A DNA stretch of 64,000 bases, from contig NZ_JAROCB010000001.1 of assembly GCF_030433675.1 (NCBI RefSeq), forward strand, positions 1,141,632 to 1,205,631, given 5' to 3'. Positions 51,455-62,238 of the stretch are shown one piece after another. The position numbers and the translations under genes were made by a program. Source of the stretch: Leifsonia virtsii. GTDB taxonomy: Bacteria > Actinomycetota > Actinomycetes > Actinomycetales > Microbacteriaceae. A model generated the notes under the pieces. That model did not search any database. It saw only the letters and a list, made by a program, of their open reading frames with translations, and was not told the DNA's origin. Position 1 is the stretch's first letter; each line of letters opens with the position of its first letter.

Positions 51455-51599
51455 GGTGTTGCTCCTTCCAAGCACGAACAGCTTGGGATGCCAACCTGAG
51501 CGTTCTCTTTCCCGATGCTGTGGACGACCTTCTGCAAGTCGATGACTCTCCACAACGTAACCGATGGGTGCGATGGGAGTAAGGCCGTACGGTGGATCC

Positions 51600-52796
51600 A
51601 TGACGATTCCCGGAGCCTGGCGCCGCGCCGCCGAGGGCGCGGGGCTGCTCGGCGCCGACGGCTCCGTGCGGCCCACCATCTTCGCCGAGATGAGCGCGCT
51701 GGCCGTGCGCACGGGCGCGATCAACCTCGGCCAGGGCTTCCCCGACGAGGACGGCCCCGCCGAGGTGCTGGACGCCGCGGTCGCGGCCATCCGCGGCGGC
51801 GAGAACCAGTACCCGCCCGGGATGGGCATCCGCGATCTGCGCCTGGCCGTCGCCGAGCACCAGCGGCGGTTCTACGGCCACGAGGTCGACCCCGACCGGG
51901 AGGTGCTCATCACCGCCGGCGCCACGGAAGCCATCGCGGCGACCCTGCTCGCTCTCCTGGAGCCCGGCGACGAGGTCGTCACGTTCGAGCCGTACTACGA
52001 CGAGTACGGCGCCGTCATCGCCCTCGCCGGCGGGGAGCATCGCACCGTCCCGCTCGAGCCGCCCACGTTCCGGCCCGACCTCGACCGGCTGCGCGACACC
52101 GTGACCGACCGGACGCGGGTCATCCTGGTGAACACCCCGCACAATCCCACCGGCGCGGTGCTCGACCGCGAGACCCTCTCCGTGATCGTGGAGCTGGCCG
52201 AGCGGCACGACGCCGTCATCGTCACCGACTCGGTGTACGAGCACCTGACCTTCGGGCCGGAGCACATCCCGCTCGAGTCGCTGCCCGGAGCACGGGAGCG
52301 CACGGTCGCCATCTCGTCCGGCGGCAAGACCTTCAACACGACGGGCTGGAAGGTCGGCTGGCTCACCGCGCCGCCTGCGCTCGTGACAGCCGTGCTCGCC
52401 GTGAAGCAGTTCCTGACCTACGTGAACGGCGCGCCCTTCCAGCCGGCGATCGCCGCAGGGCTCCGGCTGCCCGACGCCTACTTCCGCGGCATCGCCGAGA
52501 CGCTCGCGCACAAGCGCGACATCCTCTCCGACGGCCTGCGGGCGGCAGGCTTCGGCGTGTTCCCGAGCGACGGGACCTACTTCGTGGTCGCCGACGCCGC
52601 GCCGCTAGGGTTCCCGGACGCCGTGGAGCTGTGCCGGACGCTGCCCGAGCTCACCGGGGTGGTCGCCGTGCCGCTCGGCGCGTTCAGCCGCGGCGAGTAC
52701 GCCGCGCGCACCGCATCCCTGGTCCGGTTCGCGTTCTGCAAGCGCGCCGAGGTGCTGGAGGAGGCCGCCCGCCGCCTGTCGGCGCTGCCGCGCTGA
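51600..52796 (+). CDS. PLP-dependent aminotransferase, class I/II
   Basis: A 398-residue fold-type I aminotransferase. Features: AINLGQGFPDEDGP near 40-53, ENQYPPGMGIRDLR near 71-84, GATEAIAATLLALL near 107-120, NTPHNPTGAV near 178-187, catalytic Lys in SSGGKTFNTTGWKVGW (Lys near 243), and a C-terminal RFAFCKR. This pattern fits the kynurenine/methionine aminotransferase branch (YbdL-like). TACGGT (51588-51593) 6 nt before the ATG implies a leaderless mRNA. Confidence 0.93.
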   Translation: MTIPGAWRRAAEGAGLLGADGSVRPTIFAEMSALAVRTGAINLGQGFPDEDGPAEVLDAAVAAIRGGENQYPPGMGIRDLRLAVAEHQRRFYGHEVDPDREVLITAGATEAIAATLLALLEPGDEVVTFEPYYDEYGAVIALAGGEHRTVPLEPPTFRPDLDRLRDTVTDRTRVILVNTPHNPTGAVLDRETLSVIVELAERHDAVIVTDSVYEHLTFGPEHIPLESLPGARERTVAISSGGKTFNTTGWKVGWLTAPPALVTAVLAVKQFLTYVNGAPFQPAIAAGLRLPDAYFRGIAETLAHKRDILSDGLRAAGFGVFPSDGTYFVVADAAPLGFPDAVELCRTLPELTGVVAVPLGAFSRGEYAARTASLVRFAFCKRAEVLEEAARRLSALPR

Positions 52797-52804
52797 GCAT
52801 CGAG

Positions 52805-52853
52805 GGGACGCGACACGCCGTGAACGCGCCGGCATAGCGGCGTGTCGCGTCCC
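52805..52853. repeat. Dispersed inverted repeat, ACACGCCGTGAACG type (copy 2)
   Basis: Perfect 16-nt arms (52805-52820 and 52838-52853) enclose a 17-nt loop. The left arm and start of loop read GCGACACGCCGTGAACG, 16 of 17 matches with the element at 6918-6971. It lies between convergent genes (aminotransferase and nitrilase-family gene) and may terminate both. Confidence 0.85.
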
Positions 52854-52865
52854 ACGGCTGCGGCG

Positions 52866-53720
52866 TCAGCGCGCGACGACGCGGTAACGGCGCAGCGCCA
52901 GCGCGGGGTTCCGCTCGCGCACCTCGCGGATGCGGGCGGTCGAAACCTCCGCCACGGCGACTCCGGTCGTCTCGCCGAGGCCGGCGACCGTGACGCCCAT
53001 CGGGTCCACGATCGCGCTCGAGCCGACGCCGATCGACGGCGGGTGGTCCGCCGCGGCGACGTACAGCGTGTTCTCGATCGCGCGCGCGGCGAGCAGGGTC
53101 GTCCAGTGGAACTCCTTGAGCGGCCCGCGCACCCATTCCGCCGGCACCGCGACGAGGTCGGCTCCCGCGTCCGCGAGGCGGCGCGTGACCTCCGGGAAGC
53201 GCAGGTCGAAGCAGGTCTGCAGGCCCACGGTCACGCCGTCGACCGCGAACATCTGCGGCTCCTCGACCGGGCCGGGCACGACCCACTCCGACTCCCGAGC
53301 GCCGAACGCGTCGTAGAGGTGCTGCTTCCGGTAGGTCGCCAGCACATCGCCCGAGTCCCCCACCGCGACGAGCGTGTTGGAGAACTTGCGCGCCTCATCC
53401 GTGCGCTCCACGAGCCCTGCCACCACCGTGACGCCGTGCTCGCGGGCCGCTGCGGCGAGCCCGCCGACGAACTCGCCGTCGAGCGGCTCCGCGTTGCGGG
53501 CGAACGACGGCCCGAGCGGGTCGGTGAAGTACGACGCGTACTCCGGCAGCACGGCCAGCCGGGCGCCGCGGGAGGCGGCCACCGCGATCAGGCCGGCCAC
53601 CACATCCCGGTTGTGAACGCGGTCCTCCCCCGGCGCGAACTGCACGACCGCGACGCCGATGCTCCGCCCCTCGACGGTCAGCTCGGCCGGCCGGTCGCTC
53701 ACGGCGCCACGCTCGCTCAC
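52866..53720 (-). CDS. Nitrilase-superfamily carbon-nitrogen hydrolase (operon gene 7)
   Basis: A 284-residue amidase with the complete catalytic triad: Glu in AVLPEYASYF, Lys in TYRKQHLYDAFG, Cys in VGLQTCFDLRFPEV. It resembles the Nit/omega-amidase group (branches 9-10), which hydrolyse deaminated glutathione, alpha-keto acid amides or similar. Its GTG start at 53720 overlaps the histidine-kinase stop by 4 nt, so it is the translationally coupled last gene of the signalling operon. It converges with the aminotransferase; the pair could act together in amide/alpha-keto acid metabolism, as omega-amidase and aminotransferase often do, but the genes are on opposite strands. Confidence 0.9.
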   Translation of the reverse strand: MSERGAVSDRPAELTVEGRSIGVAVVQFAPGEDRVHNRDVVAGLIAVAASRGARLAVLPEYASYFTDPLGPSFARNAEPLDGEFVGGLAAAAREHGVTVVAGLVERTDEARKFSNTLVAVGDSGDVLATYRKQHLYDAFGARESEWVVPGPVEEPQMFAVDGVTVGLQTCFDLRFPEVTRRLADAGADLVAVPAEWVRGPLKEFHWTTLLAARAIENTLYVAAADHPPSIGVGSSAIVDPMGVTVAGLGETTGVAVAEVSTARIREVRERNPALALRRYRVVAR

Positions 53721-55495
53721 GGCGCCACCTCGGCGCGCGGGATGGCCGCCGTGACCGGCTCCGGCGTCTCCACCGGCAGGACGATGCTGATCGACGTGCC
53801 GACGCCCTCCTCGCTCGCGATGTCGAGCCGGCCGCCGTGCGCCGTGACGATCGCCTTGGTGATGGTGAGGCCGAGACCCACCCCGGGCACCGCGTTGCGC
53901 GTGGCGGTGGACGCGCGGAAGAAGCGCTGCGAGAGCCGGCTGAGCTCCACCGCAGGGATGCCGATGCCGGTGTCGGAGACGGCGATCACCGCCGTCTCGC
54001 CCTCAGCCCGGAGCGCGACCGTGACGGTGCCGCCCGACGGCGTGAACTTGATCGCGTTGGAGACGAGGTTGTCGACCGCCTGCCCGAGCCGCACCGCATC
54101 GCCACGGACCGTGAGCGGCCCGTCCGGCAGGTCGCCGACGATCGTCACGCCCGCGTTGGCCGCGACCGGACGTGCGGACTCGATGGACGCCGACACCACG
54201 CTCCCGAGCTCCACATCCTTGATGTCGAGCGGGAACCGGCCCGACTCCACCTGAGCGGTGAACAGCAGGTCGCCGACCAGGCGCAGCAGCCGATGCGCGT
54301 TGCGCTCCGCGACGCCGAGGTACTGCAGCTGCTCCTCCGAGAGCGGCGCCTCCTCATCGTCGCGCATGAGCTCCAGGTAGCCGAGGATCGACGACAGCGG
54401 CGTGCGCAGCTCGTGCGAGATCAGGCCGACGAACTCGTCCTTGAGGCGCGCGAACTCCCTCGCCTGCGTCATGTCGGTCGCCACGAAGATGAAGCCGACG
54501 CGGTGCCCGTTCTCGTCGAGCCGCGGCGTCGCGGCCACCTGCACCGCCACGCGCTTGCCGTCGGGACGCACGTAGGTCCAGTCGCGCACGTCGGCGGAGC
54601 CGGCCCGCACGGTGTCGACCAGGGCGGAGAACTCGTCCACGCTCGACACCGTGGTGACGCGGGCGTCCATGTCCTCCAGGCGCTGCTCGATCTCCTGGGT
54701 GTCGTGAAAGTCGATGATGTGGTGCTTGCCGTCGAGCACCTGCTTCTCGGTCAGGCCGAGCATCTTCGCCGCGCCCGGGTTCCAGACGTCGATGAGCCCG
54801 TCGAGGTCGGTGCCGATGACAGACTGCTCGGTGACCGCGTTCCAGATGCTCTGGATGAGACGGTTCGCGGTCTTCAGCCGCGCCTCGTTGAGCACCAGCT
54901 CGTCCTGCGCGGTGACCGCCTGAGCCAGCAACTGCTGCTGCTGCTCGACCGCCTCGCGCGCGACCTTGAGCTGCACGCGCATCCGGTGGGCGATCTCGTT
55001 GATGACGACGGCCACGATCAGGTAGAGCACCGGCGAGAAGAACGCGCGGACGACGTCGGCCGGCGATCCTCCTCCGCCATCGATCACGAGCGGGGCCAGC
55101 AGCACGATGAAGGTGCCGGCCGCCGCGATCAGGATGTTGATCCGCCCCTCCTCGGAGGCGATCCACACGAACGGCAGCAGGGTCAGCACCACGAACGGCG
55201 ACGCAGAAGACCCGGTGCCGAGACGCATCAGCCCGACGGCGAAGAGGGACAGCACCGGGACGATGACCGCCCACTCCGCGGCCAACCGTCGCCAGGGCAC
55301 GACGAGGGACAGCACCGTGGCGACCAGGACGAGCACGATGCTGGCGACGAACTCCGGCCAGTCCGTGACCGGCACGCCGTTGGGCATCAGCGCGATGAGA
55401 GCGACGATGCCGAAGCCGATGAGCGTCGGCACCTGCTTCATGAAGGCGGACGGCGAGTCGATGGGGATGCGGCTGAGCCAGCGGTCGAGGGTCAT
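53717..55495 (-). CDS. Membrane PAS-domain sensor histidine kinase (operon gene 6)
   Basis: A 592-residue kinase. Five or six N-terminal membrane spans (about 22-38, 50-68, 74-92, 98-115, 120-140, 152-170) are followed by a helical linker rich in Gln (180-205), a PAS domain (about 208-345 with IGTDLDGLIDVWNPGAAKMLGLTEKQVL and a PAC end), HisKA with phospho-His361 (LISHELRTPLSSILGYL), and HATPase with NLVSNAIKFTP, DTGIGIP and GVGLGLTI. No extracellular sensor domain; the membrane part itself may sense. Its start overlaps the receiver gene's stop (ATGA). Confidence 0.95.
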   Translation of the reverse strand: MTLDRWLSRIPIDSPSAFMKQVPTLIGFGIVALIALMPNGVPVTDWPEFVASIVLVLVATVLSLVVPWRRLAAEWAVIVPVLSLFAVGLMRLGTGSSASPFVVLTLLPFVWIASEEGRINILIAAAGTFIVLLAPLVIDGGGGSPADVVRAFFSPVLYLIVAVVINEIAHRMRVQLKVAREAVEQQQQLLAQAVTAQDELVLNEARLKTANRLIQSIWNAVTEQSVIGTDLDGLIDVWNPGAAKMLGLTEKQVLDGKHHIIDFHDTQEIEQRLEDMDARVTTVSSVDEFSALVDTVRAGSADVRDWTYVRPDGKRVAVQVAATPRLDENGHRVGFIFVATDMTQAREFARLKDEFVGLISHELRTPLSSILGYLELMRDDEEAPLSEEQLQYLGVAERNAHRLLRLVGDLLFTAQVESGRFPLDIKDVELGSVVSASIESARPVAANAGVTIVGDLPDGPLTVRGDAVRLGQAVDNLVSNAIKFTPSGGTVTVALRAEGETAVIAVSDTGIGIPAVELSRLSQRFFRASTATRNAVPGVGLGLTITKAIVTAHGGRLDIASEEGVGTSISIVLPVETPEPVTAAIPRAEVAP

Positions 55496-55908
55496 GCCTT
55501 CTCCTCCAGCGCGAGCATCTCGCGGATGCGGGTCGACAGCAGCCGCGGGCTGAACGGCTTCACGATGAAGCTGTCGGAGCGGTCGGCGACCACGCCGTGG
55601 TCGGTGAGCAGCTGCACGGAGGCGGACACCATGAGGATGAGCGTGTCCTTCGTGAGCGCATCGGAGCGGATGGCCTCGGCGACTTCGACGCCGTTGAGTC
55701 CCGGCATCGAGATGTCGAGCACGGCCAGGTCGACCCCGCCGGAGCGGACGGCGTCGAGTGCGTCCCGGCCGTTGTCCACGGCGGCCACGATGTCCACACC
55801 CGCACGGGAGGCGGCGATCGTCATGAGGCCCCGGATGTCGGCGTCGTCGTCCGCGATGACGACCCGCTTGCGGTCGCCCGCCACGAGTCTTTCGGCGGCC
55901 TCAGACAT
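55492..55908 (-). CDS. Stand-alone response-regulator receiver (CheY-like; operon gene 5)
   Basis: A 138-residue single-domain receiver: acidic pocket DDD near residues 20-22, phospho-acceptor D65 (AVLDISMPG), switch Ser95 region (LMVSAS), Lys117 (FIVKPFS). There is no DNA-binding or enzymatic output, so it must act by protein contact or as phosphate sink. It overlaps the kinase gene by 4 nt and the small membrane protein gene upstream by 8 nt. Confidence 0.93.
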   Translation of the reverse strand: MSEAAERLVAGDRKRVVIADDDADIRGLMTIAASRAGVDIVAAVDNGRDALDAVRSGGVDLAVLDISMPGLNGVEVAEAIRSDALTKDTLILMVSASVQLLTDHGVVADRSDSFIVKPFSPRLLSTRIREMLALEEKA

Positions 55909-56059
55909 GCAGGAACACCACCCGGACGATCACGATGACCGCGGAGACCAGCAGCGCCACACCGGCGTACACCGGCAGCCGGTACTCCCAGCGGCGGTTG
56001 CGCTCGAGCTCCTCCTCGATCTGCTTCCGCACCTCGACCGGCGGTTCGACGGGACTCAT
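55901..56059 (-). CDS. 52-residue single-pass membrane protein (operon gene 4)
   Basis: A 52-residue protein: a charged amphipathic N-terminal helix (VEVRKQIEEELERNRRWEYR, residues about 8-27) and one transmembrane helix (about 29-50, VYAGVALLVSAVIVIVRVVF), ending LHV. Its ATG overlaps the PHP stop (ATGA at 56056-56059). The position between PHP and receiver genes suggests an adaptor or modulator of the kinase. No known family. Confidence 0.8.
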   Translation of the reverse strand: MSPVEPPVEVRKQIEEELERNRRWEYRLPVYAGVALLVSAVIVIVRVVFLHV

Positions 56060-56841
56060 CGGGCCTCCTCGGTCTCGGCTGCGTTCTCGGCTGCGACGCG
56101 GGCGGACGCCGCGTCGAGGAGCGCGGGGACGCGTTCGTAGCGTCCGACGTCGGCGGCGACGTGGCTGTCGGTGGAGGCAACGATACGCGCTCCGGCACGC
56201 AGCAGCGCGGCGATCGCGTCGGGCCCCGGGCACGCCCACTTCTCGTTGACCTCGACGATCGTGCCGGTCGCGGCCGCCGCGTCCGCCCAGGCGAGCAGGC
56301 GCTGCGGACCGAGCTGCGACTCGTCCAGGCCCACCTTCGGCAGGATCGAGAACCAGTGCGCCAGCTGGGCGTGCGGCGTGCGCTCCATCGCCCGGATGCT
56401 GGCCTCGACGAGCAGGTCGAGCGCGTCGTCGGCGGAGAGCCCGGCGTCGAGCCGTTCCCGGGTCGCGGTCGGCGACCACGGGCCGTCGGTGCCGGGGAAC
56501 TGGTGGTCGCCGATGACGACCGCGTCCACGCCGCCGGGGCCGACGACCAGGCCGGCCGGCGTGTCGACCCTGCCTGCCGCATCCAGCAGCTTCGCCTCCA
56601 CCCCGGTCAGCACCGTGAGCCCCTCCGGGATGCGCTCCGCAGCGACCGCCGACAGGAACTCCGGCACCCAGGTCGTCGACGCGCGCACGTGATCGGTCAG
56701 GCGGAGGGTCGCGAGGCCCGCGGCCGACGCTGCGGCGATGTTTTCCGCAAGGGTGCTCCTGGCGTCGTCGGAGAACGTGGAGTGGACGTGGAAGTCGCCG
56801 TGCAGCACGGCGGGCAGCCGAGCGGCCTCCGTGGCGCTCAC
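56056..56841 (-). CDS. PHP-domain phosphoesterase/amidohydrolase-like protein (operon gene 3)
   Basis: A 261-residue PHP protein. Metal-binding motifs: HGDFHVHSTFSDD near 13-25 (HxH), LRLTDHVR near 45-52, GVEAKLLD near 80-87, VVIGDHQ, HWFSILPK and a C-terminal ASTDSHVAADVGRY. Family members hydrolyse phosphomonoesters (HisK-like histidinol-phosphatase, polymerase-associated phosphatases). No attached domains. The GTG start at 56841 overlaps the ATP-grasp stop by 4 nt. Confidence 0.9.
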   Translation of the reverse strand: MSATEAARLPAVLHGDFHVHSTFSDDARSTLAENIAAASAAGLATLRLTDHVRASTTWVPEFLSAVAAERIPEGLTVLTGVEAKLLDAAGRVDTPAGLVVGPGGVDAVVIGDHQFPGTDGPWSPTATRERLDAGLSADDALDLLVEASIRAMERTPHAQLAHWFSILPKVGLDESQLGPQRLLAWADAAAATGTIVEVNEKWACPGPDAIAALLRAGARIVASTDSHVAADVGRYERVPALLDAASARVAAENAAETEEAR

Positions 56842-57851
56842 TCCTCCGGTCCCTCCGTGTGCGCCGCGTTCTCGGAGACCAGCACGTCGGCGGGACGCAG
56901 GAACACGTCCTCCAGGAAGCGGACGTTCGCCAGCTCCTCGAAGTCGACGGCGGAGGGGACGGGGCGGCCGAGCACGAGGTCGAGCAGCAGCGACGGCATG
57001 TCGACGCCCGCGGCGATCGTCAGCGGCATCGCGCCCGGGAAGCGCGGATTCACCTCCAGCAGCGCCGGGACGCCGTCGGAGCTGTAGCGCAGCTGCACGT
57101 TCGCGACGCCGGTCAGGCCGATCGCGCGCGCGACGTCGGCGGCGGTGTCGGAGAGCTCCGCCCGCCGCACGGTGCGCCCGGCGATCGAGACGCCGGAGTC
57201 GACCCGCTCGCGCGATCGCGGGACCGCGGCGATGACCGCTCCGTCGAGACCCGCCAGCACGTCGACGGAGAACTCCTCGCCCGGCAGGTTCTCCTGGATG
57301 ATGATGCTCTCGTCGGTGCCGAGCGCCTCGAGCGTCCCGCGGTCCGGGATGAGGCGCACGCCGCGCGAGCCGGCCCCGCTGCGGGGTTTCACGATCACCG
57401 GGAAGGTCCAGTCGGCTCCGACGCCCTCGCGGTTCAGCAGGCGGGTCACCGGGATGCGCGCGCGTCCGTCGACGCGCTGCACCAGCGCGTACTTGTCGAG
57501 GCACGTGACCAGGGTCTCGTGGGTGGGCGCGGCCAGCGCCGTGCCGACCGCGGCGAGCTCGTCTCGCCGGGCCGCGAGTCCCGGGAGCTCGACGTCGACG
57601 GTCGAGAACAGCACGTCGATGCCGTCCTCGCGGCTCATGGCGATGAGCGCGTCGACGAAGCCGTCGGAGCGGCCCGGCGGAACGATGCGCCGGCGCTCTG
57701 CGGGCACGAGGTACAGGCCGCTCGCCCAGCCGTCCATGTCGGCGGCGAACACGTCGACGTCGTCGCGGGCGAGCAGCGACCGGATCACGGCGACGCCGGC
57801 CGGGCCGCCCGCGCCGGTGACCAGGACGCGGGTTCGGGTGGTGTCGGTCAT
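56838..57851 (-). CDS. ATP-grasp ligase (operon gene 2)
   Basis: A 337-residue ATP-grasp protein. The pre-ATP-grasp Rossmann part starts VLVTGAGGPAGVAVIRSLL (about 9-27); the ATP-grasp core covers about 115-300 with FPVIVKPRSGAGSRGVRLI (about 147-165), IIQENLPGEEFSVDVL, and the metal-binding ALLEVNPRFPGAMPL (about 268-282). This is the CarB-like group that includes ligases forming amide or peptide bonds via acyl phosphates. No attached domains. It abuts the REC-PIG-L gene with no gap. Confidence 0.9.
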   Translation of the reverse strand: MTDTTRTRVLVTGAGGPAGVAVIRSLLARDDVDVFAADMDGWASGLYLVPAERRRIVPPGRSDGFVDALIAMSREDGIDVLFSTVDVELPGLAARRDELAAVGTALAAPTHETLVTCLDKYALVQRVDGRARIPVTRLLNREGVGADWTFPVIVKPRSGAGSRGVRLIPDRGTLEALGTDESIIIQENLPGEEFSVDVLAGLDGAVIAAVPRSRERVDSGVSIAGRTVRRAELSDTAADVARAIGLTGVANVQLRYSSDGVPALLEVNPRFPGAMPLTIAAGVDMPSLLLDLVLGRPVPSAVDFEELANVRFLEDVFLRPADVLVSENAAHTEGPEE

Positions 57852-58916
57852 CTACGCGGTCCTCCGGATGCGGGCGTCGGTCTGGATGCTGGAGGCCGGC
57901 ACCGAGATGTCGGCGGTGTCGCGCATGACCTCCAGGGGTTCGCAGCTCTTCCCGCCGCCGAAGCGCGACCAGTAGCGGGCGGTGGCGAGCACGAAGTCGG
58001 GCTCGAGGTAGGCGCGCAGCTCGGTCTGCGAGCGGAAGCAGTCGAGCAGCCGCAGCTTGGTCTCCGTGAACCCGTCGATCGGCACGAAACGGGTGGGCCG
58101 GAAGTCGATGGTCGCCGACGGGCTCTGATAGCAGCACACGGTCCGCACCGAGCGCGTCGCCACGTTGGTGGCGGCGTGGACGGCCCGGTGGTCCTGGTGC
58201 CGGTCGTGCGACGAGTGGGTGTAGACGATGTCGGGCTGCACCTCGGCTACCACTCGCTCGATGATGCTCACCGTCGGGTCCGCGGCGGAGATGTGGGTGT
58301 CCTCCAGGTCCTCCAGGAACAGCCGGGCGCCGAGCAGCTCCGCCGAGGCGAGCGACTCGTGCTGCCGGTCGTCGGCGTCGCCTCCGCGGGCGCCGCGCGA
58401 GAGGGTGAGGATGACGACGTCGTTGCCCGCGTCGCGGTGGGCGGCGAGGATGCCGCCGACGCCGATCTCGACGTCGTCCGGGTGGGCTCCGATCGCCAGC
58501 ACGACCTGCCGGCGCTGTGCAGCGCGCTTGACGCGGCTCTCGGCCGCGAGACGGTTCACGATCTCCACCAGCTCCGCCGAGGCGACCGGCTTGGTGAGGA
58601 ACTCATCCGCCTGCGCGCGCAGAGCGGAGACGGCGTAGTCGACCGAGACGTGCGCGGTCATCACGACGACGGGCATGCCAGGGTACCGGTTGCGCAGCTC
58701 CTTGAGCAGGTCGAGGCCGGAGATACCGGGCATCTCGATGTCGGTGATGACCAGGTCGGGATCGACCTCCGCGATCGTCTCCAGAGCGACCGCCGGATCC
58801 GTCACGGCGAACGCCACAGCATCCGCTCGCTTCTCCAGCACGGTCTTCATGAAGAAGGCCACATCCGGGTCGTCCTCGACCACCACCACCCGGAACTTCG
58901 TCACGGCACTCGCCAT
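57852..58916 (-). CDS. Receiver domain fused to PIG-L/LmbE-type deacetylase (operon gene 1)
   Basis: A 354-residue fusion. Residues 8-122 form a receiver: acidic residues E14-D16, phospho-acceptor D59 (LVITDIEMPG), T87, K109. After a basic linker (about 128-136) the PIG-L domain runs to the end: zinc motif AIGAHPDDVEIGVGG (141-155; His145, Asp147, Asp148) and the C-terminal His motif HDRHQDHRAVH (237-247). PIG-L enzymes remove N-acetyl groups from GlcNAc-type sugars (MshB, LmbE, PIG-L). The fusion implies phosphorylation-controlled deacetylation. ATG with AGGGGAT site; TAGAGT box at 58938-58943 (minus strand) marks the likely operon promoter. Confidence 0.92.
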   Translation of the reverse strand: MASAVTKFRVVVVEDDPDVAFFMKTVLEKRADAVAFAVTDPAVALETIAEVDPDLVITDIEMPGISGLDLLKELRNRYPGMPVVVMTAHVSVDYAVSALRAQADEFLTKPVASAELVEIVNRLAAESRVKRAAQRRQVVLAIGAHPDDVEIGVGGILAAHRDAGNDVVILTLSRGARGGDADDRQHESLASAELLGARLFLEDLEDTHISAADPTVSIIERVVAEVQPDIVYTHSSHDRHQDHRAVHAATNVATRSVRTVCCYQSPSATIDFRPTRFVPIDGFTETKLRLLDCFRSQTELRAYLEPDFVLATARYWSRFGGGKSCEPLEVMRDTADISVPASSIQTDARIRRTA

Positions 58917-58994
58917 CGCATCCCCTATCTGGAACAGACTCTAGTAGGACGACCGGTCCACACGGATCGACGCGCCCGGGCGGGTGTTCGCGAT

Positions 58995-59023
58995 TTCACC
59001 CCCCTGAAGAACCGTGCTAGAGT
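58995..59023 (+). promoter_or_regulatory. Promoter of initiator tRNA
   Basis: TTCACC (58995-59000), a 17-nt spacer and TAGAGT (59018-59023), 12 nt before the tRNA 5' end, form a standard sigma-70 type promoter. Confidence 0.65.
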
Positions 59024-59035
59024 CATTTCTTGTGC

Positions 59036-59112
59036 CGCGGGGTGGAGCAGCTCGGTAGCTCGCTGGGCTCATAACCCAGAGGTCGTAGGTTCAAATCCTG
59101 CCCCCGCAACCA
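59036..59112 (+). tRNA. Initiator tRNA-fMet (anticodon CAT)
   Basis: A 77-nt cloverleaf with the CCA end encoded (59110-59112). Initiator features: first base C1 unpaired against A (acceptor CGCGGGG versus CCCCGCA) and three G-C pairs in the anticodon stem (TGGGCTCATAACCCA). T-arm GTAGGTTCAAATCCTGC. Confidence 0.97.
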
Positions 59113-59115
59113 ATA

Positions 59116-59151
59116 AGGCCCCTGACCGGGAAGTTCTCCGGTCAGGGGCCT
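59116..59151 (+). terminator. Rho-independent terminator of tRNA-fMet
   Basis: AGGCCCCTGACCGG (59116-59129) pairs perfectly with CCGGTCAGGGGCCT (59138-59151) around an 8-nt loop, followed by TTGCTTTG. Confidence 0.85.
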
Positions 59152-59187
59152 TTGCTTTGCCCAGACCCGCCCGCGAGTGCGCCCCTG

Positions 59188-59227
59188 CGTCACGTCTGCG
59201 GGTGCGCGCGCACCCGCAGACGTGACG
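59188..59227. repeat. Loop-less 40-nt perfect palindrome
   Basis: The sequence from 59188 to 59227 equals its own reverse complement, with central GCGCGC; arms begin CGTCACGTCTGCGGGTGCG. It lies between the fMet terminator and the stop of the UPF0182 gene (convergent). It could form a cruciform or serve as bidirectional terminator; it is unrelated in sequence to the two other palindrome families in this window. Confidence 0.8.
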
Positions 59228-59310
59228 GGCGGCGGCAGTCGCGCGAAGTGCGGAGACGGCGAAGCGGCCCGCACCCGGAGGCGCGAGCCGCTTCTGCGAC
59301 GATCGTGACG

Positions 59311-62238
59311 CTACTTGGCCGCGGGCTGCCCCTCGGCCGCGACGGCGTCGGCGATGGCCTGCTGCAGGCGCTGCTGCGCCGCACCGTACGCCGTCCAGTC
59401 CCCCGCCTTCAGCGCGGCCTGGCTGTCCGACAGGGCCTGCCTGGCGCGCTGCAGCGCATCCTGCAGTGCGGGGTTGTTCGCCGACGAGCTTCCGCCGCTG
59501 CCGCCCGAGGTCTCACCGCCGGACTGGCCGGTGCCTCCCGTGCCGGTTCCGGTGGTCGGGACGTTGTTGTCGCCCGCACTCGCACCCGAGTCGCCGCCGA
59601 ACAGGGCGTCGAGCGCCTGGTCGAGCGTGTCCTCGAACTCGATCTTGTCGCCGAACGCGACCAGCACCTTCTGCAGCAGCGGGTAGCTGGTCTCTCCCGA
59701 CGACCGGACGTAGACCGGCTGCACGTACAGCAGTCCGCCACCCACCGGCAGCGTCAGGAGGTTGCCGTTGATGACCTCCGATTTACCCTGGCGCAGCAGG
59801 TTCAGCTGCTGCGACACGGTCGGATCGGAGTCGAACTGATTCTGCATCTGCCCGGGCCCTGGGATGCTGTCGCCCGACGGCAGCTGCAGGAGTCTGAGCT
59901 TGCCGTATCCGGAGGCGACCTTGCCCTTCTGGTCGCCGGCGTCCGCATCCACCGACAGGTAGCCCTTGAGCACCGACCTGCTCGACTCGCTCGTGCCCTG
60001 CGGGATGAACGTCGAGTAGAGCGAGAACGTCGGATCCTTCTGGCCCGGCATCTTCAGCGTCAGGTAGTACGGCGGCTGCAGCGCCGGGTTGCTCGACGGC
60101 GAGGTCGGGTCGTTCGGCGTCGTCCAGGCGTCCTCACGCGAGTAGAAGGAGCCCGCGTCGGTCACGTGGTACTGCCCGAGCACCGACCGCTGCACCTTGA
60201 ACAGGTCAGACGGGTAGCGCACGTGGCTCATCAGCTGCGCGCTCATGTCGCTGACCGGCTTCACCGTCGACGGGAAGATCTTCTGCCACGTCTTGAGCAC
60301 CGGGTCGGTGGTGTCCCACGCGTAGAGGGTCACCGAGCCGTCGTAGGCGTCGACCGTGGCCTTCACCGAGTTGCGGATGTAGTTGATGTCGTCGAAGGCG
60401 TACGCGGGCTTCGGGGTGTCCTTGTCGGCCGTCGCGTCGCTCAGGCTGCCGACGTGCGAGTACGGGAACTGGTCGCTCGTCGTGTAGCCGTCGATGATCC
60501 ATTTGACCCGGCCGTCGACCACGGCGGGGTACGCCTGCGAGTCGAGCGTCAGGTAGGGCGCGACCTTCTGCACGCGCTTGATCGGGTCGCGGTCGTAGAG
60601 GATCTGCGAGTCGTTGTTCACCGCGTCGGAGAGCACGATCTGCTCGTCCTGGAACTTCAGCGCGTAGACCAGTCGCTTGAAGATGTTGTCGAGCTTCGGG
60701 CCTCCGTTGCCGTTGAACGTGGTGTACGTCTGCTGCGCCCCCTCGGCTCCGCCCGGGTAGTCGAGCTCGACGGCCTTGCTGCCCTTCGGCGCGCCGACGA
60801 TCGAGTAGGTGGGCGACTGCTCGCCGAAGTAGATGCGCGGCTGGTACGACCCGAGCGTGCCGGAGGTGGGGATGCCCGACTCCAGGAACACGGGCTGCCC
60901 GTCGGTCGAGCGCTTGTTGCCGTAAGCGGCCACCAGACCGTAGCCGTGCGTGTACACGATGGTGTCGTTGAACCAGTTGCGGGCGCCGCCGAGGCCGGAC
61001 TGCTGCAGCTCGCGCACGGCGACCACGGCGTCCTGCTGGGTGCCGTCGAGGTTGTAGCGGTCGACGTTCAGCTTCTCCGGGAACGCGTAGTACTGCCGGA
61101 ACTGCTGCAGCTGACGGAACGATGGGCTCACGACGGCGGGGTCGAGGATGCGGATCTGCGCGGTGGTCTGCGCGTCCTGCCGCAGGGCGCCCTGCTCGGC
61201 CGTGGTCTTGGCGTTGTACGGGATCGTCTCGATGTCGCTCAGGCCGTATGCCTCGCGGGTGTAATCGATCCCCCGCTGCACGTAGGGCGTCTCGAGCGTC
61301 TTCTGGCTCGGGTCGACCTGGAAGCGCTGCACGACCCAGGGCACGATCGCGCCGACCACCAGCGCGGCGACGACGAGCAGCGCCGTGCCGACGATCGGGA
61401 ACCGCCAGCGTCCGATGAACGCCGTCAGGAAGAACAGGATGGCGACGAAGATCGCCGCGCCCGCCAGGATCGCGCGGCCCGGGATGGTCGCGTTCACGTC
61501 GGTGTACGAGGCGCCGTTGATCATGTCGTTGACGTTGGAGTCGGTGACCGTCGCGTAGCGGTCGAGCCAGATGCTCACTCCCTGCAGCAGCAGGTAGAGC
61601 CCGGCGACGACCGAGATCTGGACGCGTGCGGCGCGCGAGATGCGCACCTCGCGCCCGCTCACCCGGATGGACCCGTAGAGGTAGCAGGTGGCGAGCGTCG
61701 CCAGCAGCGAGATGAGCACGACGGCCGAGGCGAAGCCGACCAGGCTGCGCAGGAACGGCAGGTCGAAGAGGTAGAAGCCGATGTCGAGGTGGAACAGCGG
61801 GTCGGACTTGCCGTACGAGGTGCCGTTCAGCCAGAGAGCGGCGGTCTGCCAGCGGCTGGCCGCCGAGACGCCAGCGAAGATGCCGAAGACGATCGGGATG
61901 CCGTACATCGCCAGCCGGCGCAGCGGCTCGATGACCTGCTGGTAACGGTCGAGCTGCGAGTTCAGCTTCGCGTAGACCGGCCGGAGCCGGTAGGCGAGCT
62001 GGATGCACAGCCACAGCGGGACCGCCATGCCGAGGAAGCCGATGAAGAACATGGCGAGCCCGGCCAGCCACTGCGTGGTCAGCACGTTGAGGTAGCCCAG
62101 CTGGTCGTACCAGAGGATGTCCGCGTACAGCCCGGCGAACACGAAGAAGAGGATCACCACCGCGACGATCACGCCGAGAGTGATCCAGATGGCCGCGCGC
62201 CGGCGGCCTGCGGGTCGAGCTGCTGCTGTTGAACTCAC
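59311..62238 (-). CDS. UPF0182 family large membrane protein
   Basis: A 975-residue protein of the UPF0182 family, universal in actinobacteria. Seven N-terminal spans (about 18-40, 58-80, 108-130, 165-190, 210-230, 258-280, 288-312) are followed by a large extracytoplasmic domain (about 315-870) with conserved motifs such as LDPAVVSPSFRQLQQFRQYYAFP, DTIVYTHGYGLVAAYGN and SHVRYPSDLFKVQRSVLGQYHV; a Gly/Ser/Thr-rich linker (about 895-930) and a short Ala/Gln-rich helix end the protein. Function is unknown; it may be a transporter or assembly factor for cell-envelope components. Start ATG 62238 in front of a basic segment (RPAGRRRAAIW). Confidence 0.95.
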   Translation of the reverse strand: MSSTAAARPAGRRRAAIWITLGVIVAVVILFFVFAGLYADILWYDQLGYLNVLTTQWLAGLAMFFIGFLGMAVPLWLCIQLAYRLRPVYAKLNSQLDRYQQVIEPLRRLAMYGIPIVFGIFAGVSAASRWQTAALWLNGTSYGKSDPLFHLDIGFYLFDLPFLRSLVGFASAVVLISLLATLATCYLYGSIRVSGREVRISRAARVQISVVAGLYLLLQGVSIWLDRYATVTDSNVNDMINGASYTDVNATIPGRAILAGAAIFVAILFFLTAFIGRWRFPIVGTALLVVAALVVGAIVPWVVQRFQVDPSQKTLETPYVQRGIDYTREAYGLSDIETIPYNAKTTAEQGALRQDAQTTAQIRILDPAVVSPSFRQLQQFRQYYAFPEKLNVDRYNLDGTQQDAVVAVRELQQSGLGGARNWFNDTIVYTHGYGLVAAYGNKRSTDGQPVFLESGIPTSGTLGSYQPRIYFGEQSPTYSIVGAPKGSKAVELDYPGGAEGAQQTYTTFNGNGGPKLDNIFKRLVYALKFQDEQIVLSDAVNNDSQILYDRDPIKRVQKVAPYLTLDSQAYPAVVDGRVKWIIDGYTTSDQFPYSHVGSLSDATADKDTPKPAYAFDDINYIRNSVKATVDAYDGSVTLYAWDTTDPVLKTWQKIFPSTVKPVSDMSAQLMSHVRYPSDLFKVQRSVLGQYHVTDAGSFYSREDAWTTPNDPTSPSSNPALQPPYYLTLKMPGQKDPTFSLYSTFIPQGTSESSRSVLKGYLSVDADAGDQKGKVASGYGKLRLLQLPSGDSIPGPGQMQNQFDSDPTVSQQLNLLRQGKSEVINGNLLTLPVGGGLLYVQPVYVRSSGETSYPLLQKVLVAFGDKIEFEDTLDQALDALFGGDSGASAGDNNVPTTGTGTGGTGQSGGETSGGSGGSSSANNPALQDALQRARQALSDSQAALKAGDWTAYGAAQQRLQQAIADAVAAEGQPAAK

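Follow-up and report, generated by a model that had tools for sequence, protein, structure and literature searches.

A response-regulator receiver fused to a PIG-L-type deacetylase in a probable two-component-controlled glycan gene set of Leifsonia virtsii and its relatives

What product is served by an operon that couples a membrane histidine kinase and two receiver domains to deacetylase-like, ligase-like and phosphoesterase-like proteins? The question is raised by seven minus-strand genes at positions 52866-58916 of a 64,000-nucleotide stretch of the genome of the soil actinobacterium Leifsonia virtsii (assembly GCF_030433675.1, contig NZ_JAROCB010000001.1, positions 1,141,632 to 1,205,631; hereafter the window). 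The first of them encodes REC-PIG-L, in which a receiver is fused to a deacetylase domain of the PIG-L/LmbE type. An initial annotation had read all seven as one pathway of small-molecule enzymes under direct kinase control. We consider it likely that genes 1-6 instead supply the operon-borne share of a glycan system of the synthase type under two-component control, probably for an exopolysaccharide, whose family 2 glycosyltransferase (GT2) is encoded in trans. The window operon is a reduced form of a larger unit, and the nitrilase gene is probably a bystander.

All seven open reading frames (ORFs) are present with the make-up first described, as checked by ORF and Pfam searches. They encode REC-PIG-L (gene 1, 57852-58916; Response_reg 104 bits and PIG-L 83 bits in Pfam), an ATP-grasp ligase-like protein of the PRK12767/ATPgrasp_Ter type (gene 2, 56838-57851; Pfam and NCBIfam), a PHP-family phosphoesterase with a GTG start (gene 3, 56056-56841; Pfam), a 52-residue single-transmembrane protein whose homologues or look-alikes in relatives lie directly behind the GT2 gene (gene 4, 55901-56059), a stand-alone receiver (gene 5, 55492-55908; Pfam), a membrane PAS histidine kinase (gene 6, 53717-55495; PAS, HisKA and HATPase_c in Pfam, membrane segments read from the sequence) and a nitrilase-superfamily amidase with a GTG start (gene 7, 52866-53720; CN_hydrolase in Pfam). 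The tight coupling holds, with junctions from gene 1 to gene 7 of 0, -4, -4, -8, -4 and -4 nt. Junctions in the seven relatives computed (L032, L034, L036-L039, L043), which rest on estimated start codons, are mostly 4-nt overlaps too, and because the same coupling recurs there we do not attribute it to chance. The proposed absence of a DNA-binding output also stands, in that no DNA-binding Pfam domain was found in any of the seven proteins (E 0.01). A consensus scan of 52600-59400 gave no promoter-like site and a single terminator-like site inside the operon, which lies on the opposite strand and is uninformative.

The receiver of REC-PIG-L spans residues ~10-120 and the deacetylase domain residues ~137-335, and a helix joins both. 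At 83.3 bits against a gathering score of 28.2 (PF02585) the protein belongs to the PIG-L family, and it is the sole PIG-L match in the window genome (G000) at E 0.001. An AlphaFold model (predicted local distance difference test (pLDDT) 85.8, predicted template modelling score (pTM) 0.64) puts the helix at residues 113-133, where it runs from the receiver towards the PIG-L domain; a pTM this low leaves the relative placement of the two domains insecure. In the model, the PIG-L half matches BshB (Z 25.9 over 204 residues, root-mean-square deviation 2.5) as well as diacetylchitobiose deacetylases (Z ~24) and the GalB hydratase (Z 24.4); since GalB has the same fold and performs another reaction, N-deacetylase activity stays predicted. 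Structural matches also include receivers from PleD and WspR-type proteins. Asp59 (codon 58740-58742, minus strand), which from family knowledge we take to be the phospho-acceptor, stands with Asp15, Thr87 and Lys109, and all four are invariant in an alignment of the window protein with 23 relatives (A1, 24 rows). Both PIG-L active-site motifs are intact in the window, AHPDD (His145, Asp147, Asp148) at 58473-58487 and HQDH (His240-His243) at 58188-58199, both on the minus strand; the AHPDD residues presumably have the roles assigned to them in MshB.

The wider unit becomes visible in relatives. Among 150 sampled genomes of the family, 25 including the window's match REC-PIG-L over its full length (24 with at least 55%, and G107 with 42%; G107, locus L055, was left out of A1). 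In many of them the unit comprises REC-PIG-L, ATP-grasp, PHP, a PgaC-like membrane GT2, a membrane protein of ~50 residues, one or more receivers and the kinase. Of the relatives' 23 loci, 11 (L034-L043, L045) have the GT2, of ~496 residues, between PHP and the small transmembrane gene, and PHP and GT2 overlap by 4 nt in each of the six computed (L034, L036-L039, L043). Two same-genus loci (L032, L033) and L084 share the window's arrangement without an operon GT2; L084, from Leifsonia sp. Root227, is the closest named locus (84% over REC-PIG-L). The other ten loci (L044, L046-L054) have REC-PIG-L, variable receivers and, in all except L053, a kinase match, and none of the ten gave an ATP-grasp, PHP or GT2 match. 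The initial annotation had named rare co-occurrence of the seven genes as the observation that would count against it. The exact seven-gene order is indeed rare, being confined among the loci compared to the window, L032, L033 and L084, while the core does co-occur: genes 1-6 belong to the conserved unit and the nitrilase probably does not.

For the GT2 of L034 the best NCBIfam model is PgaC_IcaA (128.2 bits against an equivalog cut-off of 422.3), followed by NodC (89 bits), HpnB (73.9 bits) and HpnI (51.6 bits). It scores above the Glyco_tranf_2_3 cut-off, and C-terminal membrane segments are seen in the sequence. D91, D92, D149, D151, E242, D243, Q279, R282 and W283, which we take to be the D, DxD, ED and QxxRW motifs of processive synthases, are invariant over 16 rows that include a copy from the window organism. 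A small transmembrane protein follows the GT2 directly in 45 of 48 GT2 loci, as found by a pattern search corrected by eye (the pattern flagged 44, taking the wrong segment in L086 and L121, where the right ORF was seen, and missing L117, where the protein was recognized by eye); none was found behind the GT2 in L111, L115 and L125. Because a processive-type GT2 and a small GT2-linked membrane protein accompany the unit, the evidence points to a glycan, and the label of small-molecule enzymes is not supported. In one Actinomycetes metagenome bin, two GT2 genes of the operon family stand in tandem behind PHP (L111:13044-15990).

Where, then, is the GT2 of the window's genus? The window holds neither a GT2 nor a remnant (best match no better than E 0.5). 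Its genome encodes a GT2 of 497 residues on another contig (C3:273709-275166), 64% identical to that of L034. Two same-genus genomes (G055, G125) likewise have a GT2 in trans, and a gene that reads as an LLM-type oxidoreductase lies near all three. In a GT2 tree the three trans copies and a second, unlinked GT2 of G025 form a supported clade that falls within the operon GT2s of the family. The tree does not favor a simple relocation of the operon gene, as the trans copies group with the second G025 copy, whose 4.4-kb locus shares only the GT2 itself with the trans loci. This clustering suggests that a second copy was probably gained first and the operon GT2 lost afterwards.

Co-occurrence ties the trans enzyme to the operon. 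The 14 of the 150 family genomes that have GT2 (at least 61%) are exactly those that have ATP-grasp (at least 63%), and three of them have the GT2 in trans (Fisher p 5.6e-20, kinship ignored); among the matches listed (GT2 below E 1e-30, ATP-grasp below E 1e-15), the next-best reach 36% and 31%, respectively. The ten family genomes with REC-PIG-L and without ATP-grasp (G143, G037, G080, G044, G084, G091, G008, G071, G022, G147) have no GT2 match better than E 2e-17. In a phylum-wide sample of 396 genomes, scored on the best three to five candidates per genome, all three proteins occur at high score in the same three (G000, G305, G520); seven other genomes have weaker ATP-grasp matches, one of which (G378) has a PIG-L protein lacking the receiver part.

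The gene set occurs in sporadic members of several phyla. REC-PIG-L, ATP-grasp, PHP and GT2 are linked in Microbacterium, Leucobacter, Cellulomonas, Blastococcus and several actinobacterial metagenome bins, and PIG-L, ATP-grasp and GT2, with no PHP match, in Rhodospirillales, Acidiferrobacterales, Burkholderiales and Legionella rowbothamii. Close to where PHP would stand, one L123 protein reads by its motifs as low-molecular-weight-phosphatase-like, and one protein each in L131 and L132 as histidine-phosphatase-like. A trio of PIG-L without a receiver, ATP-grasp and GT2 occurs twice in G020, on different contigs (L059:7725-10911, L060:7755-10944), so the enzyme module exists also without two-component genes. 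Eight of the 11 REC-PIG-L loci from outside Actinomycetota include a gene for a signal-peptide protein, presumably of the outer membrane, in which tetratricopeptide repeats (TPRs) precede a barrel-like region, the barrel being judged by eye (L117, L121, L122, L123 and L127 by reading, L130-L132 by tblastn); it is weak in L129, and none was seen in L116 or L128. The matches of these proteins to PgaA/BcsC TPR models are all weak and below cut-off.

The state of the PIG-L active site follows the rest of the set. All 14 A1 proteins from genomes with ATP-grasp keep H145, D147, D148, H240 and H243, and the site is damaged in 5 of the 10 from genomes without the set (Fisher p 0.006, kinship ignored). 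The damage consists of H240D in L047, D147S in L049, D147N with H240S in L050 and L052, and H145R, D148E and H243S in L054; D242S in L046 was not counted. G107, which has no ATP-grasp match, has Arg at H240 and a degenerate receiver, and its inclusion would make 6 of 11. In a wider scan of named loci, none of 41 with an ATP-grasp match is damaged, as against 4 of 10 without one (L107, L109, L118, L119). These counts were made by hand over L084-L136 and leave out L085 and L110, which, like L139, come from the same genomes as other loci (L035, L051 and L056, respectively) and were dropped from the statistics; L114 was counted as having ATP-grasp on a 30% match on the other strand, L117 as lacking it, its contig ending near the GT2, and L134-L136 were included although they have no convincing receiver. 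Since the site is intact with the set and often lost without it, we take deacetylation, GT2 and ATP-grasp to serve one product. The damaged A1 proteins still keep D15, D59, T87 and K109, which implies that the receiver has a use without deacetylation; some lineages appear to be derived, with the receiver kept and PIG-L catalytic residues lost.

The ATP-grasp protein falls below every NCBIfam cut-off listed, its nearest Protein Data Bank sequence is 2pn1, and K155, E266 and N268 are invariant in 19 sequences. The PHP protein has the fold with a full metal-ligand set (H18, H20, D25, H51, E82, H113, H162, D225 and H227, invariant in 18 sequences); its model (pLDDT 95) best matches histidinol phosphatase, PolX-PHP and YcdX (Z 20.6-18.4), and it lies below the NCBIfam cut-offs of all ten models matched. 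A YwqE/CpsB-type tyrosine phosphatase was rejected at Z 11.2 (3qy8) against 20.6 for histidinol phosphatase. The 52-residue protein has no Pfam, NCBIfam or PADLOC match.

On the signalling side, the kinase has HisKA and HATPase domains and the receiver the conserved Asp, Thr and Lys of two-component systems. The kinase lies beside the receiver-enzyme fusion, as the initial annotation had held, and both are within the conserved unit. A stand-alone receiver is present in many, not all, relatives, and many loci have a second one. Two further arrangements were seen: in L056 (3962-5080) and L057 (3962-5071) a receiver like that of REC-PIG-L (54-55%) is fused to what looks like a PP2C/SpoIIE-type phosphatase, and in L051 (4004-13491) four kinases and three receivers, all of the same families, line up behind REC-PIG-L, so that the signalling half is unusually expanded at this locus.

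How might these proteins work together? The PIG-L domain would take the N-acetyl group off a cytoplasmic precursor sugar, exposing an amine, to which the ATP-grasp enzyme may join an amino acid or other carboxylate; the PHP enzyme would take off a phosphate. The PgaC-like processive GT2, with its small single-transmembrane partner, would polymerize and extrude an amino-sugar-containing polymer, and in the window's genus a GT2 of the same family would do so in trans. The PAS kinase would sense a signal and phosphorylate the free receiver or receivers and the receiver of REC-PIG-L, and phosphorylation would turn on the deacetylase, or bring it to the membrane synthase, with no transcription step. 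Gene content, coupling, co-occurrence in the sample, the trans GT2 and the state of the catalytic residues are observed, whereas we infer the polymer chemistry, the order of steps and the control by phosphorylation from family knowledge; direct phospho-control of the deacetylase is plausible, given the fusion and the conserved receiver site. The full proposition, that a kinase acting through a receiver-fused cytoplasmic N-deacetylase sets how many free amines a synthase-made polymer is given and re-acylated at, transcription-free and in sporadic members of several phyla, is one we put forward tentatively, as somewhat more likely to be wrong than right.

Several observations weigh against the glycan interpretation or narrow it. 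The GT2 of the window organism is unlinked to the operon; co-occurrence and phylogeny are the grounds for its membership, and the tree places the trans clade apart from the operon copy of the sister genus. With the GT2 so far below the PgaC cut-off, the sugar of its product cannot be named. Half of the A1 proteins from genomes without GT2 and ATP-grasp (5 of 10) keep an intact PIG-L site, which implies that REC-PIG-L with the kinase has some other role too. Outside Actinomycetota some receivers are non-canonical (D15 is missing in L121, L130 and L131, and K109 is Arg in L122, L128, L131 and L132), K109 is missing from the stretch before PIG-L in the actinobacterial L134-L136, and no kinase match was found at L121-L123 and L130-L132; hence the phospho-switch need not be general. 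A canonical receiver is kept in the proteobacterial L116, L117, L123 and L127. The counts take no account of phylogeny, and part of the search for the named loci relied on the pattern VLA[IV]GAHP[DN], which favors intact PIG-L sites.

Of the other explanations, the one that dispenses with polymerization is unlikely: the GT2 might add one sugar to a lipid and PIG-L deacetylate the glycolipid head group, in chemistry of the HpnI or glycosylphosphatidylinositol type. The HpnB and HpnI matches would fit, as would the name of PIG-L, given for the de-N-acetylase of N-acetylglucosaminyl-phosphatidylinositol, and no exporter was seen in the actinobacterial loci. However, PgaC_IcaA and NodC are the best models (128 and 89 bits), the QxxRW and ED motifs are invariant, and the TPR/barrel-like protein of 8 of 11 non-actinobacterial loci recalls poly-N-acetylglucosamine (PNAG) and cellulose systems, which carry such a protein. 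It is quite improbable, too, that REC-PIG-L is mainly a signaling protein or phosphate sink in which the deacetylase fold is a scaffold and the glycan genes are merely co-regulated. The five damaged PIG-L domains in the ten family loci without the set, where D15, D59, T87 and K109 persist, speak for such a role, as does the lost H240 of G107, although its receiver is degenerate too. Against it, the site is kept in 14 of 14 aligned proteins with the set and in every one of the 41 named loci that have an ATP-grasp match, and PIG-L, ATP-grasp and GT2 also occur together without a receiver (L059, L060).

We regard as very improbable the reading with which the locus was first described, one kinase-controlled small-molecule pathway of all seven genes, nitrilase included and glycosyltransferase absent. 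It accords with the tight coupling of the seven genes in the window and L032 and with the true absence of an operon GT2 in the window's genus, but 11 of the relatives' 23 loci have an operon GT2 and three genomes of the genus a trans one, and the nitrilase is elsewhere or missing in many stretches and pairs with an aminotransferase where the cassette is absent. A thiol-pathway deacetylase, of mycothiol (MshB) or bacillithiol (BshB) synthesis, has a next to negligible probability. Fold and sequence are closest to BshB and the protein is the only PIG-L match of its genome, yet 10 of 24 genomes, the window's included, have no MshC above cut-off (G119 narrowly, at 470 against 485 bits), and the BshB1 model scores 81.4 bits against a cut-off of 182.5. 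The two MshC-model matches in G000 (the better at 242.5 bits against a cut-off of 485.1) are taken to be CysS and another tRNA synthetase. With no MshC above cut-off in the window genome a mycothiol role is unlikely, and the two sets of scores led us to reject a thiol role. Anti-phage defense was rejected as well, PADLOC matches being weak and limited to three of the seven proteins.

Returning to the synthase-type glycan system, the closest known locus is E. coli yaiS-yaiP-yaiX-yaiO, where a PIG-L protein also stands beside a GT2: YaiS is 33% identical to the window PIG-L (E 5e-23) and YaiP 26% to the GT2 (E 8e-14). The four genes are annotated as putative deacetylase, putative glucosyltransferase, putative acyltransferase and outer-membrane protein; the stretch differs in having an acyltransferase and no receiver, ATP-grasp, PHP or kinase. 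Homology of the Gram-negative TPR/barrel-like proteins to YaiO was considered, and no match was found. We know of no established function for yaiSPXO, and the literature found under yaiP, yaiS or yaiO consists of a genome announcement and promoter surveys, with no paper on function by title. In the annotation of E. coli K-12, an IS2 element interrupts yaiX (L164, NC_000913.3:380844-382872).

The PNAG systems PgaABCD and IcaADBC share with the unit the nearest named GT2 model, a deacetylase, a GT2 followed by a small membrane protein and, in the Gram-negative loci, a TPR/barrel-like protein. The PgaB and IcaB deacetylases are of the extracytoplasmic type, whereas here the deacetylase is PIG-L and reads as cytoplasmic, and ATP-grasp, PHP and the receiver fusion are extra. 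A PNAG system proper was rejected, the L034 GT2 reaching 128.2 of the 422.3 bits set for PgaC_IcaA. CheB and PleD/WspR are response regulators with enzymatic output, likewise with a receiver helix-joined to a catalytic domain; the output here is a PIG-L-type N-deacetylase. Literature searches, which did not cover subscription papers or other wordings, gave no paper joining response regulator, PIG-L and receiver domain, and none on PIG-L or LmbE with ATP-grasp or with the added terms glycosyltransferase and exopolysaccharide. The gene set is widespread and apparently undescribed.

The nitrilase has a different association. Its nearest NCBIfam model is deaminated glutathione amidase, at 234.2 bits against a cut-off of 355. 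In a sample of 40 genomes that lack a full-length REC-PIG-L, 34 match both the nitrilase and the aminotransferase; 33 have both on one contig, at most 1 kb apart in 24, at most 5 kb in 30 and further in three, and in G050 they are on different contigs. In relatives with the cassette the nitrilase lies upstream of REC-PIG-L (for example L036, L039, L044) or downstream of the kinase (L032-L035, L040, L041), and other stretches gave no nitrilase. This pairing in cassette-less genomes argues that the nitrilase is not part of the glycan pathway. It is probably a resident gene beside which the cassette lies, and a functional neighbor of the aminotransferase, whose counterpart in the window is a convergent plus-strand gene, outside the glycan unit, that reads as aminotransferase-like (51564-52796). 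As a guess, the two could be an omega-amidase/glutamine transaminase pair: these enzymes are reported to be biochemically coupled (PMC6302742). The likeness, a nitrilase-superfamily amidase next to an aminotransferase-like gene, is limited to gene 7 and the flanking gene. Between the convergent genes is a perfect 16-bp inverted repeat (52805-52820 and 52838-52853), probably a two-way terminator shared by both, and beside the operon start lies a divergent tRNA-Met gene (59036-59112, plus strand).

The locus illustrates that one window can mislead, since the probable key enzyme, 64% identical to a relative's operon copy, is on another contig. Known fast control of exopolysaccharide synthases runs largely through cyclic di-GMP or transcription. 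If the proposed system is real, a receiver joined to one of the pathway's modifying enzymes would give exopolysaccharide a control route distinct from these. It would also suggest a role for an otherwise anonymous 52-residue membrane protein and may provide a frame for E. coli yaiSPXO.

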